A model generated the notes under the pieces. That model searched no databases. It had not been told where the DNA came from and saw only the letters and a program-made list of their open reading frames with translations. Positions 22,487 through 32,523 of a stretch of DNA of 64,000 bases are shown piece after piece. Position numbers and translations under genes: made by a program. This DNA is from Agrococcus jejuensis (GTDB taxonomy: Bacteria > Actinomycetota > Actinomycetes > Actinomycetales > Microbacteriaceae). Every line of letters starts with the position of its first letter. Within the stretch, counting starts at the first letter, position 1. The stretch is taken from the NCBI RefSeq assembly GCF_900099705.1, contig NZ_LT629695.1, positions 2,728,001-2,792,000 on the forward strand, given 5' to 3'.

Positions 22487-23980
22487 ATGAGCGTCCCCTT
22501 CTCCACTGCCACGGGCGCCGACGTGCGCGTCCGCTTCTGCCCCTCTCCGACCGGCACCCCGCATGTCGGCCTCATCCGCACCGCCCTGTTCAACTGGGCG
22601 TATGCGCGGCACACCGGCGGCAAGCTGGTGTTCCGCATCGAGGACACCGACACGGCGCGCGACAGCCAGGAGTCGTACGAGCAGCTGCTCGAGGCGATGC
22701 GCTGGCTCGGCATCGACTGGGACGAGGGCGTCGAGACCGGCGGCCCGCACGAGCCGTACCGCCAGTCGCAGCGCGGTGACATCTATCGCGGCATCATCGA
22801 CCGCCTGGTCGAGGCCGGCCACCTCTACGAGTCGTACGCGACCGCGGAGGAGATGGAGGAGCGCAACCGCGCCGCCGGCCGCGACCCCCGCCAGGGCTAC
22901 GACAACCACGAGCGCGACCTCACCGATGAGCAGAAGGCCGCGTTCAAGGCCGAGGGCCGTCAGCCGAGCCTGCGCCTGCGCGTGCCCGACGAGGACCTCT
23001 CGTTCACCGACCTCGTGCGCGGCGAGATCACCTTCCCCGCCGGCTCGTCGCCCGACTTCGTCGTCGTGCGCCCCAACGGCCAGCCGCTCTACACGTTCGT
23101 GAACCCCGTCGACGACGCGCTCATGGGCGTCACCCACGTCCTGCGCGGCGAGGACCTCCTGTCGTCGACCCCGCGTCAGATCGCGCTCTACCGCGCGCTC
23201 GCCGACGTCGGCGTCGTCGACGCCATCCCGAACTTCGGCCACCTGCCCTACGTCATGGGCGAGGGCAACAAGAAGCTGTCGAAGCGCGACCCGCAGTCGA
23301 ACCTGTTCCTGCTGCGCGAGGCCGGCTTCATCCCCGAGGGCCTGCTCAACTACCTGTCGCTGCTCGGCTGGGCGCTGTCGGCCGACCGCGACGTCTTCAC
23401 GCGCGACGAGCTCGTCGCCGCGTTCGACGTCGCCGACGTGCTGCCGAACCCGTCGCGCTTCGACGCGAAGAAGGCCGAGTCGCTGAACGGCGACCACGTG
23501 CGCGCCCTCGAGCCCGCCGACTTCGCGCAGCGCCTCGTGCCGTACCTCGGCGACGCGCTCTCGACGCCGCCGACCGAGGCCGAGCTCGCGCTGCTCGCCG
23601 AGGCCGCACCGCTCGTGCAGGAGCGCATGCAGCTGCTCGGCGAGGCCGACGGCATGCTGCGCTTCCTCTTCCTGGGCGCCGAGGAGCTGCACTACGAGGA
23701 GGACGCGCTCGGCTCGCTGCGCGACGACGCGCACGCGACGCTCGCCGCCGCATCCGCCGCGCTCGCCGACGAGTCGGTGCCGTTCACGATCGAGGACGTC
23801 GAGCGCGTGCTGCGCGAGGTGCTCATCGACGGGCTCGGGCTCAAGCCGCGCCTCGCGTTCGCGCCGCTGCGCGTGGCCCTCTCGGGTCGCCGCATCTCCC
23901 CGCCGCTGTTCGAGTCGATGGTGCTGCTCGGCCGCGACGAGACCGTCGCGCGCCTGCAGCGCCTCATGGGTCGCATCTGA
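22487..23980 (+). CDS. gltX: glutamate--tRNA ligase
   Basis: 497 residues. Charges tRNA-Glu with glutamate. Class I synthetase motifs: [11 protein letters not shown] (HIGH-type, about 20-29) and [11 protein letters not shown] (KMSKS-type, about 262-268), with the family blocks [26 protein letters not shown] and [12 protein letters not shown] between. The ATG at 22487 has GGAG 6 bases upstream; a TAGGAT box at 22471 may be the -10. The next gene follows by only two bases. Confidence 0.97.
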
Positions 23981-23982
23981 GC

Positions 23983-24894
23983 GTGGACGTCGACGTCGTC
24001 GTGATCGGCGCCGGGCCCGCAGGGCTCGCGGCGTCGCTCAACCTCGCGCGTGCGCACCGCCGCGTGGCGCTGCTCGACTCCAACCGTCCGCGCCACGCGG
24101 CGACGCTCGTGAGCCACGGCTTCCTGAGCCGCGACGGCATCTCGCCGCTCGAGCTGCGCACGCTCGGCCGCGACGAGGTGCTCGCGTACCCGACCGTCAC
24201 CTACGAGCGCACGATCGTGCACTCCATCTCGCCCGTGCCGGGTGGATTCGTGACCGTGGCGAAGCGCCCGGGCAGCGACGAGCAGACCGAGGTGCACAGC
24301 CCCGCCGTGCTCATCGCCACCGGTCTCACCGAGGCGCTGCCGCTGCCGTCGATGGTGCGCGCCTGGTACGGCACGAGCCTGCACTCGTGCATGGACTGCG
24401 ACGGCTACGACAAGCGCGGCAAGCCGCTCGCCCTCATCGGCGAGACCGACGACCTCGCCGAGCGAGCGCTCGTCATCCGCAGGCACACCGACGACCTCGT
24501 CGTCTTCACCAACGGCGTCGGCGACGTGTCGGCCGACGACGAGGCGCGCCTCGCCGCCCTCGGCATCCCCGTGGAGCGCGCGCCGATCGCGGCGATCGAG
24601 GGCGACCGCGAGGGGATGCAGGCGGTCGTGCTCGACGACGGCCGCCGCTCGACGCGCACGGCGGGCTTCGTGCGGCCGCAGTGGCACGCGAGCATCGGCT
24701 TCGCCGATCTGCTCGGCCTCGAGCGCGACGCCGACGGCCTCGTCGTCGTCGACGGCTCGCAGCGCACGAGCGTCGCCGGCATCTACGCCGCAGGCGACAT
24801 CACGCCCGGCTTCCGCCAGCTCGCCGTCGCGGCGGGCGAGGGCACGATCGCGTCGTCGGTGATCAACCGCGACCTGATCGCGGCGGGGCGGTAG
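23983..24894 (+). CDS. thioredoxin reductase-like FAD oxidoreductase
   Basis: 303 residues. FAD-binding GxGxxG in VVVIGAGPAGLAASLN, and near the middle a redox pair Cys136-x-x-Cys139 (HSCMDCDGYD) matching the CATC active site of low-Mr thioredoxin reductases, here CMDC. The C-terminal VAGIYAAGDITPGFRQLAVAAGEG is the second FAD-binding motif. The NADPH-binding region between lacks a clear GGGxxA motif (ALIGETDDLAERA instead), so the electron donor is uncertain; a thioredoxin partner is not encoded nearby. GTG start directly after gltX. Confidence 0.85.
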   Translation: MDVDVVVIGAGPAGLAASLNLARAHRRVALLDSNRPRHAATLVSHGFLSRDGISPLELRTLGRDEVLAYPTVTYERTIVHSISPVPGGFVTVAKRPGSDEQTEVHSPAVLIATGLTEALPLPSMVRAWYGTSLHSCMDCDGYDKRGKPLALIGETDDLAERALVIRRHTDDLVVFTNGVGDVSADDEARLAALGIPVERAPIAAIEGDREGMQAVVLDDGRRSTRTAGFVRPQWHASIGFADLLGLERDADGLVVVDGSQRTSVAGIYAAGDITPGFRQLAVAAGEGTIASSVINRDLIAAGR

Positions 24895-24926
24895 CTCGTC
24901 GCGTCTCACGGGTGCGGTGCGCATCC

Positions 24927-25070
24927 GATGGGTCACTTCCTGCCGCTGATCGGTCACTTTCGCCCGCTGAGGGGTCAGTACCTGCCGAAGTGAGCGGCGT
25001 GTCTCGGCAACAAGCGACCCCTCCTGTACGGAAGTGACCACTCCCCGTCAGGAAGTGACCACTCCTGTCG
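24927..25070. repeat. 21-base tandem and inverted repeat array (R2)
   Basis: Three tandem 21-base units (24927-24947, 24948-24968, 24969-24989; first unit starts GATGGGTCACTTCCTG), then, about 40 bases later, two inverted units carrying GGAAGTGACC at 25030-25039 and 25051-25060, again exactly 21 bases apart. The array fills the gap between two convergent genes. Confidence 0.85.
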
Positions 25071-25090: not shown

Positions 25091-27097
25091 TCAGGCCAGC
25101 GCGTCGCGCGCCGCTGCGCCGACGAGCGGCGCGAGCGCCTGCGACGCCATCCACGACAGGTGCGAGCCGTCGGCGGTCACGAGCATGCCGTCGATCGTCG
25201 CGGGGCACACCGCGGAGTCGTCGGCGCACAGCCAGTCCCGAGCGTCCACGAACGTCGTGCCCGGCAACGTCGCGGAGGCGGCCGCGAGCGCGTCGACGCG
25301 CGCGTCGAGCGCCGTGCCGTCGACCGTGCAGCGAGCGGTCGCCGACTCGAGCGCATGCGGCGTCGCGCACGCGGCGAGGGATGCGAACGGCGGGGGAGCG
25401 TCGAGCCAGAGGATGCGCGCGCCCGCGTCGGCGAGCGGCGCGAGGCGCTCGGCGGTACCGGCGGCAGCGGCGATCGGCCCCGCACCGGCGGGCACGACGC
25501 CGTCGGCATCCACGAGCCGCTCCGACCGCAGGCCGTTCGCGACGACGACGAGGTCGGGCGGGTCGGCGAGCAGCCGCTCGGTCGCCCAGTCGCCGTGCGC
25601 CGCGCAGGCGTCGCGGGCGATGTCGGGCACGTCGGTCGTCACGGTCGAGAAGGCGCACGAGCCCATCGTGAGCACCTGGATGCGCGCGTCCGGCAGCCCG
25701 AGCCGCAGCGCCGGCATCCACGAGATCGCCTGCGAGTCACCGACGACGGCGACGTCGAGCGTCGCGTCGGCGGGGCCGTAGACGCAGCGGTCGGCACGGT
25801 CGGGGCCGGCGTCGAGGCAGTCGTCGACGACCCACTCGGGCGCCTGCGATGCGCTGCCGATCGCCTCGGTGCCCGCGAAGGATGCGCCGGCGAGCGTCGC
25901 GTCGATCGCGGCCTGCGCTGCGGCGGGGGAGTCGATGCGGGCGACGTGCGCCGACGCGGGCGAGGCCGCGCCGACCGTGACGACGGCGACGAGCGTCGCG
26001 GCCGCCGCGACGGGCGCGAGGAGGCGCGACGGTCGCCAGCGGGCGAGCAGGTCGAGGCCGTGCAGCACGTGCTGCGAGAGCCACGCGAGCGCGACGCCGC
26101 CGGCGACGAGCAGCAGGCCGTCGACGAGCGGCGTCGCCGACGCGCGGTCGGGCGCCATGAGCCGGTAGGCGACGAGCAGCGGCCACGACCACAGGTACAG
26201 CCCCCACGAGAGGCCGCCGAGCACCACGAGCGGTCGCCAGCCGAGGGCGCGGGCGACGACGGTCGGCGCGCCGGCTGCGCCCGCGACGAGCACGGCGACC
26301 GCGCCTGCGACGGGCACGAGCGCGATCGCGCCCGGGTAGGCGCCGAGCGTCGAGAGCGCGCCGGCACCGAGCACGAGCGCGATGCCCGCGCCCGCGAGCG
26401 CCGTGCGCGCGACGGATGCGAGCCGCAGCGACGGCGCGAGCAGGCCGGCGAGCGCGCCGACCGCGGGCTCCCACAGGCGAGCGGCGGTGTCGAAGTACGC
26501 GGCATCGGGCTCGAGCGCCACGTGCACCTGCGCCCACGCGAACGAGGCGAGGCCGACGCATCCCACCGCCGCGAGCACCCGCCGCCGCGCACCCGCGCGG
26601 GCACCGACGAGCGCGGCGGCCAGCACGACGAGCACGAGCGCGATCGTCGCCTGCAGCTGCACCGACGTCGCCCACAGGTGCTGCACGGGCGAGGCGGTCG
26701 CGGTCTGCGCGAGGTAGTCGGTGCTGCGATCGACGAGCCGCCAGTTGATGGTCCACGTCGCCGCCGACAGCACGTCGAGCAGCACGCCGCGGCGCAGATG
26801 CGGCGGCCACAGCGTGAGCACCGCCAGCGTGACGACGCCCAGCACGAGCCCGGCGAGCGGCAGCTGCCGCACGATCGCACGCCGCACCGTCGACGCGGCC
26901 GCGCGCGGCCCACGGTCGGCGATGGCGGCGACGAGCGGCGGCACGAGCAGGAATCCCGCGACGACGAAGAACACGTCGACGCCGCCCGACACCCGCCCCG
27001 GCCACACGTGGTAGATCGCGACGAGCAGCGACGCGACCGCGCGCATCCCCTCGACGTCGGGGCGTCGGATGCGGGGGCTGGGCTGCTGCGATGCCAT
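25091..27097 (-). CDS. OafA-type acyltransferase with SGNH domain
   Basis: 668 residues. The N-terminal acyltransferase-3 domain has about ten to eleven membrane helices: RRPDVEGMRAVASLLVAIYHVWPG with the family His, GGVDVFFVVAGFL, and later helices to about residue 400. A C-terminal extracytoplasmic SGNH hydrolase-like domain (about 420-668) carries VAVVGDSQAISW (Ser block) and DGSHLSWMA (Asp/His block). This architecture moves acyl groups across the membrane and onto extracellular sugars or peptidoglycan; the acceptor here is unknown. Divergent from the three-paralog operon. Confidence 0.9.
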   Translation of the reverse strand: MASQQPSPRIRRPDVEGMRAVASLLVAIYHVWPGRVSGGVDVFFVVAGFLLVPPLVAAIADRGPRAAASTVRRAIVRQLPLAGLVLGVVTLAVLTLWPPHLRRGVLLDVLSAATWTINWRLVDRSTDYLAQTATASPVQHLWATSVQLQATIALVLVVLAAALVGARAGARRRVLAAVGCVGLASFAWAQVHVALEPDAAYFDTAARLWEPAVGALAGLLAPSLRLASVARTALAGAGIALVLGAGALSTLGAYPGAIALVPVAGAVAVLVAGAAGAPTVVARALGWRPLVVLGGLSWGLYLWSWPLLVAYRLMAPDRASATPLVDGLLLVAGGVALAWLSQHVLHGLDLLARWRPSRLLAPVAAAATLVAVVTVGAASPASAHVARIDSPAAAQAAIDATLAGASFAGTEAIGSASQAPEWVVDDCLDAGPDRADRCVYGPADATLDVAVVGDSQAISWMPALRLGLPDARIQVLTMGSCAFSTVTTDVPDIARDACAAHGDWATERLLADPPDLVVVANGLRSERLVDADGVVPAGAGPIAAAAGTAERLAPLADAGARILWLDAPPPFASLAACATPHALESATARCTVDGTALDARVDALAAASATLPGTTFVDARDWLCADDSAVCPATIDGMLVTADGSHLSWMASQALAPLVGAAARDALA

Positions 27098-27216: not shown

Positions 27217-27972
27217 ATGACGCTGCTGGACGAGCGCGAGACGAGCGCCTCGAACGACGTTGCGATGAGTCCGCAGGAGCGCAAGGCGCGCCGCGCGCGC
27301 ATCCGCCGCTGGATCTTCCCGGCAGTCTCGCTCGTCGTCATCATCGGTGTCGTCGTGACGACGGTGCTGCTCATGAACAGCGGCATCACCGAGGATCGTC
27401 CGCCGACCGCCGACGAGATCTCGGCCGACAACACGTCGCAGATGACGGATGCGGGACGCGCGTACATCGCGCAGCGGCAGACGGCGTCGTTCAACCTCTC
27501 CGACCTGCCGCTCACGGCCGACGAGGTCGGCATGGCCGACGACGACACGGTCGTCGCGTCGAGCAGCATCGGCCTCATCCAGACGACGTTCTTCGTCGGT
27601 CGCGGCGGCGGCATCGACGGCGAGGGCTACTTCCGTTCGCTCATGCGCCAGATGACCGTGACGACCGAGGGTGGCGTCGTGACGAGCATCGCCGCCGAGC
27701 TCGACACGTTCGGCTGGGCGGAGTTCCCGGCGATCGTGCGTGCGATGCAGGACGGCACGACGCAGTTCGGGTGGGAGTTCACACCCGCGATGCAGGCGCA
27801 GCTCGAGGACGAGGTCGGCGCCGCGGTGCGCGACGGCGAGTCGTACGCGACGTCGTTCGACGCCGGCACGGCGATGGGCATCCCCGTGGGTGCCGAGGTC
27901 GCGTGCGACGGCGGCGGCAACTGCAGCCTCGTCTACGTGCTCGAGCCGACCGAGGTGGCGACGGGGTCATGA
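27217..27972 (+). CDS. single-pass membrane protein, paralog A of three
   Basis: 251 residues: a basic cytoplasmic tail (KARRARIRRW, about 23-32), one membrane helix (32-54) and an extracytoplasmic domain of about 195 residues. Features shared with the two downstream genes: PPTADEIS-x5-SQMTDAGRAYI, a SFNLSDLPLTADEVGM block, a FGWEF motif near 184-188, and a C-terminal pair Cys230-x5-Cys236 followed by SLVYVLEP, probably a disulfide. No known family is recognised. GGGGAGG six bases upstream fixes the ATG. It overlaps paralog B as ATGA, so all three are coupled. Confidence 0.8.
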   Translation: MTLLDERETSASNDVAMSPQERKARRARIRRWIFPAVSLVVIIGVVVTTVLLMNSGITEDRPPTADEISADNTSQMTDAGRAYIAQRQTASFNLSDLPLTADEVGMADDDTVVASSSIGLIQTTFFVGRGGGIDGEGYFRSLMRQMTVTTEGGVVTSIAAELDTFGWAEFPAIVRAMQDGTTQFGWEFTPAMQAQLEDEVGAAVRDGESYATSFDAGTAMGIPVGAEVACDGGGNCSLVYVLEPTEVATGS

Positions 27973-28763
27973 TCGCCGAGCTCGAGGGCCGCGACGCGCA
28001 GCAGCGCGATGCTGGCGAGTCCTCGAGTCGGAGGTGGCGGCGACCACGCCGCGAGCTGTCACCGCAGCAGCTGCGTGCCCGCCGCGAGCGGCGCAGGGGA
28101 TGGATGATCCCGTTCGGCGGCCTGTTCGGCGTCGTGGGCGCCTACGTGACGTTCGTGCTCGTGACGGGCGCCGGCACGCACACGGTCGAGCCGCCGACGC
28201 CCGACGAGGTGTCGGCCGCGGGCACGACGCAGTTCGGCGAGGCGGGGCTCGCGTACGTGCGCGAGTGGCGCATCGTGCACGTGAACCTCGAGCACGGGCC
28301 GCTCACCGCCGACGACGTGGGGCTCGACGACGACGCGACCGCCGTGGCCGAGGCGCCGCCCGGGCAGGTCTGGGCGATGGTCGTGGGCATGGATCAGGGC
28401 GGTCTCGCGGGCGACGGGGCCATCCGCCTCGTCGTCGACAGCGTGGCGGTGACGACGGAGGACGGCATGGTGACGAGCCTCGACGTGGCCCGTGCGCCGT
28501 ACGTCTGGGCGTCGTATCCGACGGTCATGAACGATCTGCAGCAGGGCGTCGCGGCGTTCGGCTGGCAGTTCGATCCCGAGGTGCGTGCGGAGATCGACGA
28601 CATCGTGGGCGACGCGGTGCGCGCCGGCGAGGCCGTGACGGTCGCGGTCGATCCCGGCATGGTCTCTGGCGTCGAGGTGGGCGCCGAGATCGTCTGCCGC
28701 GACGATGGCCACTGCGGCATCACGTACGTGCTCGATCCCTCGGTGACGGCGACGACGACATGA
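27969..28763 (+). CDS. single-pass membrane protein, paralog B of three
   Basis: 264 residues: long basic cytoplasmic tail (RRWRRPRREL, RARRERRRGW), one helix (about 45-67), then an extracytoplasmic domain aligned end to end with paralogs A and C: PPTPDEVSAAGTTQFGEAG, the PLTADDVGLDDD block, FGWQFDPE, and Cys243-x5-Cys249 followed by ITYVLDP. It starts on the ATGA overlap with A and ends on the ATGA overlap with C. Unknown function; a heteromeric extracellular complex is an inference from the 1:1:1 coupling. Confidence 0.8.
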   Translation: MIAELEGRDAQQRDAGESSSRRWRRPRRELSPQQLRARRERRRGWMIPFGGLFGVVGAYVTFVLVTGAGTHTVEPPTPDEVSAAGTTQFGEAGLAYVREWRIVHVNLEHGPLTADDVGLDDDATAVAEAPPGQVWAMVVGMDQGGLAGDGAIRLVVDSVAVTTEDGMVTSLDVARAPYVWASYPTVMNDLQQGVAAFGWQFDPEVRAEIDDIVGDAVRAGEAVTVAVDPGMVSGVEVGAEIVCRDDGHCGITYVLDPSVTATTT

Positions 28764-29485
28764 CCGTGCTCGCGCCTCCTCGACCGCCGCGCGCGGCGGA
28801 GGTGCGGCGCGGCCTCTCCGCCCCTGAGCGGCGCACGCGGCGCCGGCTCGTCGTGCGGTGGGTGTCGATCGGCGTCGGGCTGCTGCTCGTGGCCGCGACT
28901 CCGGTCGTGACGAGCATCCTCGCGAGCCATGCGCTGCAGGAGGCGTCGGCGCCACCGTCGCTCGCCGAGGTGTCGCGGCTGGGGCAGACCCAGATGACGC
29001 CGGCGGGCATGGCGTACGCGCAGCTGCACCAGCAGGCCTCGTTCAACCTGCTGCACCTGCCGCAGCCCGCATCCGAGCTCGGCATGCAGGAGAACGCGAC
29101 CGTCGTGCTCGAGCCGTCGGCCGGCGGCATCCAGACGACCGTCGTCGGCCCGTCGGGCGGCGTGGAGGCGTGGGCGTCGAGCATCGCGGCGACGAGCGAG
29201 CGCGGCGACTGGGTGCGGCTCGAGGTCACCGAGGATGCGCTGGGCTTCGGCGACTTCACGCGCCTCATGCAGCGCGTCGACGTGCTCGCGCAGATGCTGG
29301 ACTGGCGCTGGTCGGATCGACTGGCGGATGCAGCCGCGTCCGCGGTCGCGGAGGGTGTGCGCACGGGGGAGACGACGCTCGTGACGGTCGAGGGCAGCGA
29401 CGCGTTCGGCGTGCCGACCTCCGGCCGCATCGAATGCACCGCTCAGGGCGCGTGCACGCTGACGACGGTCTTCGACGTCGGCTGA
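28760..29485 (+). CDS. single-pass membrane protein, paralog C of three
   Basis: 241 residues: basic tail (RRTRRRLVVRW), one helix (about 32-56), extracytoplasmic domain with LAEVSRLGQTQMTPAGMAY, SFNLLHLPQPASELGM, and Cys226-x5-Cys232 followed by LTTVFD. It is closest to A in the SFNL and GGIQTT segments. Last gene of the operon; tRNA-Gln begins 77 bases downstream. No recognised family. Confidence 0.8.
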   Translation: MTVLAPPRPPRAAEVRRGLSAPERRTRRRLVVRWVSIGVGLLLVAATPVVTSILASHALQEASAPPSLAEVSRLGQTQMTPAGMAYAQLHQQASFNLLHLPQPASELGMQENATVVLEPSAGGIQTTVVGPSGGVEAWASSIAATSERGDWVRLEVTEDALGFGDFTRLMQRVDVLAQMLDWRWSDRLADAAASAVAEGVRTGETTLVTVEGSDAFGVPTSGRIECTAQGACTLTTVFDVG

Positions 29486-29562: not shown

Positions 29563-29634
29563 TGGGGTATGGTGTAATTGGCAACACGGCGGTTTCTGGT
29601 TCCGTTGTTCTTGGTTCGAGTCCAGGTACCCCAG
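29563..29634 (+). tRNA. tRNA-Gln (anticodon CTG)
   Basis: Cloverleaf by eye: acceptor TGGGGTA (29563-29569) pairs with TACCCCA (29627-29633); D arm GTGT/ACAC; anticodon loop TTCTGGT with CTG at 29596-29598; T arm with TTCGAGT loop. The discriminator is G; CCA is not encoded in full. The anticodon stem has a T-T mismatch and a G-T pair, which is weaker than usual. Confidence 0.92.
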
Positions 29635-29639
29635 CAAGC

Positions 29640-30609: not shown

Positions 30610-32523
30610 TCAGCGGCGGAGGAGGATCTGCTTCGCCGCGACGTCGGCCCCTGCGAGCAGGGGCGAGGGTTTGCCTGGGGTAGCGCCGATCGCTGAGCCC
30701 GGCTGCGTCGTCGAGGCAGGGATGCCGAGGACGACGACCGACGGGTCGAGGTCGCCCGACGCGCTGACCAGGTTGTGACCCGTCGAGGACTCCTCGTCCA
30801 CAAGCGCGGGGGAGGTGTCGAGGCCGTCGCCCTCCACGCCCGCGAAGGCGTGCAGGCGGGCTGCGCCGCGGGCGAGCAGCGACTGGAGCAGCGGGTCGGA
30901 GGTCGAGCCCACGCGGCCCTTCGACATGCGGGTCTCCACGAGCACCGGCGCTGACTCGCTGCGGCCCGAGATCGGGGAGGTCGCCACGAACAGGCCCGAC
31001 GACTCGTCGCGCTCGATCGTCAGCTCGGGGCCGAGCAGGTCGAGCACGCCCGCCTCGATGAGGGCGAGCACTTCGCGGGTGCGGCCAGCGGGCGGGCCCG
31101 ACGCCAAGAACAACCCGTCACCGTCGAACCAGCCGAAGACGTCGTGCACCGCGGACTTGCCGGTGAGGGCGCCGCGCAGCGCGAGCCGCACGACCTGGCC
31201 GCGCAGCGCCTGCATCATGCGGTTCACCGCCGCGCGCGGGCTCATCGCCGACTCGGTCATCGAGGCGAGCTCGTCGTCGACGTGGCGCTGCACGATCTCG
31301 GCCCAACCCTCGGCCGAGACAGGCTTGCCGCGCGTCGGACGGCGCAGCCAGTCGACGTGCCACAGCTCGCGCTCGTCGAGCGTCCACTCGCCGAGCACCC
31401 GCTCGATCGAGGGGAGATCCGTCGCCGCATCGAGGGCGTCGAGCCAGCCGGGTGCGACCGCATCCGGGCGAGCGCGGGCGAGCGCGTCGAGGTGGGCGAA
31501 CGCGAAGTCCCGCGCCAGCACCGGCCACACGTCGCGGCGCAGGTTGAAGCCCGTCGACGCCTCCCAGCGGGCGAAGCGCTCGGGCGTCGCGTAGCGGGGC
31601 GTGCCCGGCGCGACGCGGCCGCCGTCGGGCTTCGCACGGTAGGGGAGGCCGCGGCCCGAGCTCGCGACGAGGCGCGGCTCGCGGCCGCTCGGCACGTAGC
31701 GGAGGCGGCCGTGCGGGTCGCCGGGCACCGCAACGAACGAGCCGCCCCACCGCCCCACGAGGTCGCCGACGACATCGAAGAACGTCGCGCCCAGGCCGCG
31801 CACGAGCACGACGGGCCGTTCGGTGCCGGGAGCAGCAGACGGCACGAGCGTCCAGTCCTGCTCGCCCGGCATCCCCGGCCCGACGTAGGCGAGCCCGTGC
31901 CGCTCGGCGAACGCCGTGAACGCCGCGACCTCGGTCGTCGGCTGCGCCTGCACCATGCCCTGCGCGAGCACGACGGTCGGCGCCGACAGCTCGCGACCGT
32001 CCTCGAGCACGACCGTCGCACCGCCGTCGTGCGAGCGCACGTCGATCGCGAGACCGATGGTCTCGTCCACCGTCACGCGGCCGGAGGCGATCGCCGCATC
32101 GAGCTGGTCGCGGAAGTACGCGCCCTGCAGCCGTCGGGTCGGGAAGTCGTCGCCGTGCAGCGTCGCAGCCTCGTCGACGACCCACGCGCCCGTCGCGTGC
32201 TCGCCCGCGTCCACCACCGATGCCGCCCACGCCACGAGGTCCGGGCCGGGCGCCGCCGGACCTGACATGGGCGTCGACTCGTCGGGATGGATCGTCGTGG
32301 TCGCCGCCGTCGTGTTGTTCAGGTAGGCGGCGGGCTGGTCGGTGCGCCACGTCGCCCCGGCGCCGATCTCGACGGCGTCGACGATGGCGACGCGCACGGG
32401 CGGCGCATCCGAATCGACGCGCGCCGCGAGCCGCAGCACCGTCGCGACGCCGCGCGGGCCACCGCCCACGATCACGGCATCGAACGACGCAGCGCCGTCC
32501 GCCGACCCCGCAGACGCAGCCAT
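30610..32523 (-). CDS. FAD/NAD(P)-binding protein linked to iron ABC importer
   Basis: 637 residues. N-terminal dinucleotide-binding motif DAVIVGGGPRGVATVLRLA (about 15-33) as in the FAD_NAD_binding_9 family, and a second Rossmann-like region (LVRGLGATFFDVVG). The long middle region contains RYATPERFARWEASTGF and a C-terminal domain with SGRSESAPVLVETRMSKG. Such proteins are often called FAD-dependent hydroxylases or oxidoreductases without proof. Its ATG overlaps the ABC ATPase stop (TGATG), so it belongs to the importer operon; processing or reduction of an imported iron chelate is inference. Confidence 0.78.
   Translation of the reverse strand: MAASAGSADGAASFDAVIVGGGPRGVATVLRLAARVDSDAPPVRVAIVDAVEIGAGATWRTDQPAAYLNNTTAATTTIHPDESTPMSGPAAPGPDLVAWAASVVDAGEHATGAWVVDEAATLHGDDFPTRRLQGAYFRDQLDAAIASGRVTVDETIGLAIDVRSHDGGATVVLEDGRELSAPTVVLAQGMVQAQPTTEVAAFTAFAERHGLAYVGPGMPGEQDWTLVPSAAPGTERPVVLVRGLGATFFDVVGDLVGRWGGSFVAVPGDPHGRLRYVPSGREPRLVASSGRGLPYRAKPDGGRVAPGTPRYATPERFARWEASTGFNLRRDVWPVLARDFAFAHLDALARARPDAVAPGWLDALDAATDLPSIERVLGEWTLDERELWHVDWLRRPTRGKPVSAEGWAEIVQRHVDDELASMTESAMSPRAAVNRMMQALRGQVVRLALRGALTGKSAVHDVFGWFDGDGLFLASGPPAGRTREVLALIEAGVLDLLGPELTIERDESSGLFVATSPISGRSESAPVLVETRMSKGRVGSTSDPLLQSLLARGAARLHAFAGVEGDGLDTSPALVDEESSTGHNLVSASGDLDPSVVVLGIPASTTQPGSAIGATPGKPSPLLAGADVAAKQILLRR

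Follow-up and report, generated by a model that had tools for sequence, protein, structure and literature searches.

Three genes, A, B and C, lie in tandem in the window, the 64,000-nucleotide stretch of DNA analysed here (Table 1). Both junctions, A/B and B/C, are 4-bp ATGA overlaps, which bears out the coordinates and the overlaps given in the original prediction. The three proteins have the single-pass plan that it had described: an arginine-rich or basic N-terminal tail, one transmembrane (TM) helix and one outer domain. Searched against its own genome, protein A finds B at E 1.5e-53 (40%) and C at 7.7e-28 (31%), and BLASTP of A against C gives 6e-26. Paralogy of A, B and C is far beyond chance. 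The copies are 29–38% alike in pairwise comparison, with four exact 14-mer words in common between A and B, two between A and C and none between B and C.

Table 1. Features at the A, B, C locus, in window coordinates
Feature	Position	Strand	Remarks and basis
gltX, glutamyl-tRNA synthetase	22508..23980	+	left landmark of the slot; start approximate; 490-aa frame, matches in relatives
FAD/NAD-dependent oxidoreductase	23983..24894	+	frequent second landmark; Pfam Pyr_redox_2 1.5e-20
Dispersed repeat	24927..25068	.	~21-bp units in inverted arrangement; 26 own-genome matches, itself included
AT3 acyltransferase with SGNH domain	25091..27097	-	divergent neighbour, variable allele; Pfam SGNH 2.1e-24, Acyl_transf_3 2e-15
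Gene A	27217..27972	+	251 aa, one membrane pass and an outer domain; open frame, homology, model
Long helix of A	27271..27378	+	residues 19–54, holds the membrane span; model of A
C-x5-C of A	27904..27924	+	Cys230 and Cys236, candidate disulfide across beta-hairpin; alignment, model
Gene B	27969..28763	+	264 aa; in the window genome, missing in G007 (A. jejuensis contig); open frame, locus comparison
Gene C	28760..29485	+	241 aa; open frame, BLASTP, A. jejuensis comparison
tRNA-Gln (CTG)	29563..29635	+	right landmark of the slot; tRNA call

The 264-aa start of B, within the ATGA overlap, is the more likely one because a metagenome relative, P0089 (88% identical), is also 264 aa long. The database version of B (P0090) has 219 aa and is 100% identical over 83% of B, which fits translation from an internal start, the basic tail being left off. 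The pattern GGAGGTN6ATG has no match in the window and is uninformative. A fourth paralogue, D, lies about 0.53 Mb away (G000:C1:2220136-2220813; L004:1471-2172); it is strongly diverged and sits a little downstream of a tRNA-Arg gene. Within the window, ARAGORN calls a tRNA-Arg at 31716–31813, inside a 637-aa FAD-NAD(P)-binding frame (30610–32523); this call is probably false.

Fold and family of the outer domain

Protein A was modelled with AlphaFold from an 87-row alignment (mean pLDDT 90.4, pTM 0.76). In the model, helix 19–54 begins in the basic tail and is followed by a single alpha/beta domain. Structure prediction, suggested as a check on the original prediction, thus returned one predicted outer domain for A but no clear match when its fold was compared with known structures. 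The motifs said to run through all three proteins hold in part. C-x5-C is found in A, B and C; in A it flanks the turn of the last beta-hairpin, and at least 90% of alignment rows have it. C departs at other blocks, with AEVS in place of DE[IV]S, LDW in place of FGW and LPQPASELG in place of LPLTADEVG.

Under the positive-inside rule, the domain is placed outside the cell. The location evidence within A, B and C is predictive (one TM helix and a basic N-tail), and the lipoboxes of relatives described below support the outward orientation that we infer. A role at the cell surface, as first proposed, remains likely.

The domain family is without a name in the libraries searched, in line with the earlier failure to recognise one. 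Pfam and NCBIfam models gave nothing above cut-off for A, B or C, the sub-threshold matches falling mostly in the tail/TM stretch, and nothing above cut-off for seven relatives. A Pfam scan of 87 members returned weak families (best E 0.0036), none of them a named immunity family among the 25 of 27 families listed. Sequence-profile searches of the PDB reached E 0.32 for the TM family and 0.19 for the related lipoproteins, neither significant. Matches to CU044_5270, PspM, SpoIIQ and anti-sigma models are confined to the tail/TM stretch and were dismissed as composition. Among the closest known systems we presumptively enter Mog1/PsbP/DcrB-like folds.

A variable slot between gltX and tRNA-Gln

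The 490-aa frame that we take from its sequence to be gltX has a counterpart at E<=1e-100 in 22 of the 24 same-genus genomes searched. Eleven of these 24 genomes have a match to the A/B/C family at E<=0.01. Two of them, G002 and G023, were left out as weak tail/TM matches, giving nine carriers of a full-length member and 15 genomes without one. Three tandem copies occur in the window genome alone, which has its distant copy besides; G007, an A. jejuensis contig, has two (A and C), and the other seven carriers have one each. The original prediction had taken the triplet to be kept as a unit and had read a 1:1:1 complex from it. With one carrier of nine having three tandem copies, that reading gives way, and the unpaired copies found among related genomes are an outcome that had been named beforehand as contrary to it.

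Across the family, 17 of 398 Microbacteriaceae genomes matched better than 1e-7; 31 of the 48 genomes listed were dropped, with E 3.9e-6 or worse and nearly all matches in the tail/TM part. An order-level search took in 396 genomes and added the TM-family members of G613 and G709. Genome searches scored at most six (family), seven (order) or three (effector) candidates per genome, at which depth weak members can be missed, and one further search scored the 8000 best candidates alone.

We fetched 20 loci: the slots of eight other Agrococcus genomes, the distant copy of the window genome and 11 of 12 loci from other genera (G318 omitted). Among 19 slot loci, gltX and tRNA-Gln(CTG) are present in all 19 and the FAD oxidoreductase in 11. 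In 15 of them no more than 150 bp separate the tRNA gene from the family gene; in four (L043, L045, L052, L055) the distance is 0.6–6.6 kb. The G709 member lies beyond tRNA-Gln, about 3.3 kb from gltX, and the G613 locus has no gltX within the 14 kb fetched.

Forty regions following gltX, taken from genomes that have no full-length member (13 of Agrococcus and 27 others), gave no profile match at E<=0.05. They hold tRNA-Gln in 38 cases, 22 of them at a spacing that fits one gene of ~0.9 kb, the oxidoreductase in 33 and AT3 in none. Inspected by eye, 14 of the 40, mostly those with a long interval, hold other genes, such as one for a seven-helix protein. Differing extra genes, for example one for a multi-helix protein, are seen in the interval at L061-L063, L070, L082, L085 and L086. 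Since the genes between gltX and tRNA-Gln differ, the slot is variable.

One address across genera and a mostly single copy suit an ordinary accessory envelope gene, and we counted them against the immunity-like reading set out below. The chief alternative to that reading is a plain envelope protein. Its outward domain would bind a wall or membrane component or scaffold a membrane complex; the gene would owe its place beside gltX to history, with a duplication now and then, and the lipoprotein branch would have been recruited separately beside effectors. Against this account stands the rarity of the TM family (17/398), which argues for no core role.

Copy history and the divergent acyltransferase

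In a tree of 50 proteins, with long branches flagged, the single-copy Agrococcus genes cluster with C (95/89), and A joins its own orthologues (88/98). These two groups and B part at a single fork without order (93/87), and the distant copy D falls outside (97/89). A placement of B as the deepest branch was withdrawn, as the tree leaves B, A, and C with the single-copy genes at one fork. Beyond the window, one relative of B's own kind is known, the metagenome protein named above.

A and C form an ATGA-joined pair in A. jejuensis; A. versicolor has both under consecutive locus numbers (07840/07850), and a jgi contig probably has both as well. Set against A. jejuensis, B has come or gone cleanly between its two neighbours. 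The recurring pair and the three distinct copies with overlapping genes count in favour of a stable 1:1:1 surface heterotrimer of A, B and C; against it, B is missing in A. jejuensis and seven genomes have a single copy. We regard such a heterotrimer as extremely unlikely; an A–C dimer is possible. G013, whose GltX is 93% identical, is without the whole block: similarity ends at window position 24895 and returns at 29472.

Protein identity between the window and A. jejuensis is 97.6% for gltX, 96.4% for the oxidoreductase, 92.0% for A and 93.4% for C, against 57% for the acyltransferase. DNA identity, taken in 200-base steps, runs at 94–98% up to the oxidoreductase, 65–74% in the acyltransferase and 90–95% from A on. 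Synonymous divergence follows the same course, with a dS of 0.58 for the acyltransferase, 0.19 for A and 0.22 for C. A swapped acyltransferase allele would be the best account of this mosaic. The core word of the dispersed repeat next to the acyltransferase gene has no exact match in the A. jejuensis locus L056.

The acyltransferase is also less constant a neighbour than had been supposed, with an AT3 gene in the slot in two of nine same-genus carriers (the window genome and A. jejuensis). In those two the divergent gene adjoins the family genes, which counts in favour of A, B and C as partners of the AT3-SGNH protein in surface-polymer modification. This partnership is very unlikely. The slots of the other seven carriers lack AT3, homologues of which occur elsewhere in all 24 same-genus genomes. 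Between the two slot alleles 43% of residues differ, compared with 7–8% for A and C, so the acyltransferase and A/C do not travel together.

For A and C, dN/dS against A. jejuensis is 0.23 and 0.17. Both genes are under purifying selection, with no sign of diversification, which suits the plain envelope protein and was counted against the immunity-like reading. Values of dN/dS near 1 among A, B and C were set aside as meaningless at such divergence and at a third-position GC of 0.92–0.94.

Related lipoproteins are encoded with WXG100/DUF2515-like proteins

The order-level search also matched lipobox-type proteins without a TM helix in two other families (G434, G582, G640). With one such lipoprotein as the query, 149 genomes from the family of G434 gave eight matches in seven genomes, G434 and G582 included. 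A lipobox-type cysteine is predicted in all ten rows of the lipoprotein alignment. By hhalign, the 87-row TM-family alignment matches the lipoproteins at a probability of 98.5 (E 3.7e-15, 170 columns), and a 17-row alignment of the triplet and close homologues does so at 96.6 (E 6.5e-10, 185 columns). A profile built without lipoproteins recovers 10 of 11 lipoprotein loci, the one missed being a truncated copy. These profile comparisons show that the outer domain of A, B and C is homologous to the actinobacterial lipoproteins. The lipoproteins are ~16–20% identical to A, a distance that we counted against the immunity-like reading.

At eight loci of G434's family, a gene of ~490–515 codons with a WXG100-like head lies directly upstream of the lipoprotein gene in five, as a fragment in two and not at all in one; the G640 locus has no WXG100-like upstream gene. 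Taking the 11 lipoprotein loci together, seven have a full-length WXG100/DUF2515-like gene directly upstream, two have fragments and two have none. The seven intact cassettes (L116, L117, L130, L132, L135, L136, L137) are from Micrococcales, and in six the two genes overlap by 4 bp (ATGA or GTGA, with starts of our choosing); the overlap in L132 is longer. L131 and L133 are decayed cassettes, with effector fragments beside a truncated (L131) or intact (L133) lipoprotein gene, as though a lipoprotein gene might persist after its effector is lost.

Five upstream proteins were scanned. At E<=0.1, Pfam DUF2515 matches all five (best 7.3e-7), T7SS_signal three and WXG100 two; NCBIfam WXG100_ESAT6 matches all five below cut-off. 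The proteins look like type VII secretion substrates, with secretion and a toxin role both putative, and we call them effectors on that footing. DUF2515 has no assigned function, and the matches to WXG100 fall under cut-offs; both points count against the immunity-like reading. A literature search returned no paper on DUF2515, and none on gltX, a membrane protein and Microbacteriaceae in combination.

When the effector alignment was run against the 398 Microbacteriaceae genomes, 28 matched at E<=1e-10. Among the matches listed, only those of G212 and G296 are full length, the others reaching at most the first 154 positions, and both full-length genes have a lipoprotein gene directly behind. 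The gene layout of effector and lipoprotein, taken by analogy, resembles that of toxin and immunity protein. No effector gene lies beside a TM-anchored member at any of the 23 loci scanned, the 64-kb window included, and none was seen in the 16-kb surroundings of D (L044). Nor did the ten Agrococcus genomes of the 398-genome draw, the window genome among them, give an effector match at E<=1e-10 with at most three candidates scored per genome.

Instead of inhibiting a type VII-like substrate, the lipoprotein may be its partner in secretion or at the surface (a chaperone, receptor or anchor). The 4-bp overlaps of effector and lipoprotein genes would suit a stoichiometric partner of this sort. 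We think it quite unlikely, as no such substrate was found in the ten Agrococcus genomes and as the export partners of TslA, where PMC10730906 describes them, are small helical proteins, in contrast to the present alpha/beta domain, which has an outer anchor of its own.

An immunity-like reading of the domain

We tentatively favour, at somewhat less than even confidence, a reading of A, B and C as orphan, membrane-anchored, immunity-like surface proteins. A secreted WXG100-headed protein paired with a surface lipoprotein would resemble a type VII toxin–immunity pair, and it is from this likeness that we take the domain as an immunity-like binder of effectors and A, B and C as its orphans. The reading draws on the lipoprotein homology, the effector–lipoprotein linkage (seen from the lipoprotein side at 7 of 11 loci and from the effector side for both full-length genes of the 398 genomes), copy numbers of zero, one, two and three, and the divergence of the copies.

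In outline, the single alpha/beta domain of A, B and C would face outward and bind another protein. It would belong to a domain family with two anchored forms, TM copies found mostly in the gltX–tRNA-Gln slot and lipoproteins co-encoded with WXG100/DUF2515-like proteins. By binding it, the domain would neutralise an effector active on the membrane's outer face. A, B and C, with no effector of their own found, would be orphans, and differing copies may cover differing effectors. The plain envelope protein is an alternative that we hold to be almost as probable. It sits well with the slot beside gltX at 19 of 19 loci across genera and with the lack of an effector near TM-anchored members (0/23), a lack that we count against the immunity-like reading. 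It fits poorly with homologous lipoproteins that are tied to effector-like genes.

A broader form of the immunity-like reading is unlikely, though it can be stated. In it, the cassettes would form an actinobacterial effector–immunity system not described before. Agrococcus and other Microbacteriaceae would have kept the immunity domain alone, now anchored through a TM helix and arrayed as orphans, in varying number, in the gltX–tRNA-Gln slot. If the partner is a toxin, type VII-style antagonism would extend to Micrococcales; the type VII literature that we found is mostly Firmicute and in part mycobacterial. Immunity domains would then outlive their effectors at a fixed chromosomal address. 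In either event three anonymous genes gain a place in a single domain family that can be tested and has a candidate partner, and if the immunity-like reading is false, the triplet is still a copy-number variant and not a conserved three-part machine.

Comparison with known type VII immunity proteins

An adjoining effector gene would be expected of a surface immunity protein of a type VII secretion system. The homologous lipoproteins have an effector-like gene at the seven loci given above and the TM-anchored members at none of the 23 scanned. In the Pfam and NCBIfam scans given above, A, B, C and their relatives match no described immunity family. A broader search of the type VII literature found no title on the A/B/C domain family among those listed.

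The nearest likeness is to TilA and the DUF576 tandem lipoproteins. TilA, a surface lipoprotein of Staphylococcus aureus, binds the T7 lipase TslA and inhibits it, and strains differ in how many TilA homologues they have (PMC10730906). Common to both are an outward, membrane-anchored protein and variable numbers of non-identical copies (PMC10730906, in part), and the lipoprotein relatives of A, B and C adjoin a type VII-style gene. Unlike TilA, A, B and C are TM-anchored with no effector nearby, and the likeness comes from gene comparison. No family named DUF576 appeared in Pfam scans of members at E<=1 (in the 87-member scan, among the 25 of 27 families listed). The proteins with a WXG100/T7SS_signal head and a DUF2515-like C-terminus are the genetic partner of the lipoprotein branch, with none in the window; their WXG100 and T7SS_signal matches lie under the curated cut-offs where cut-offs are shown.

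In the available part of PMC9484751, the immunity genes esaG and tipC are described as multiple non-identical paralogues, arranged in strings, with gain and loss. Unlike the long shared blocks described there, none were seen among A, B and C, whose common 14-mer words are the few counted above; profile scans were the check on any relation to EsaG and TipC. What EsaG and TipC share with A, B and C is a run of diverged copies that are gained and lost (PMC9484751).
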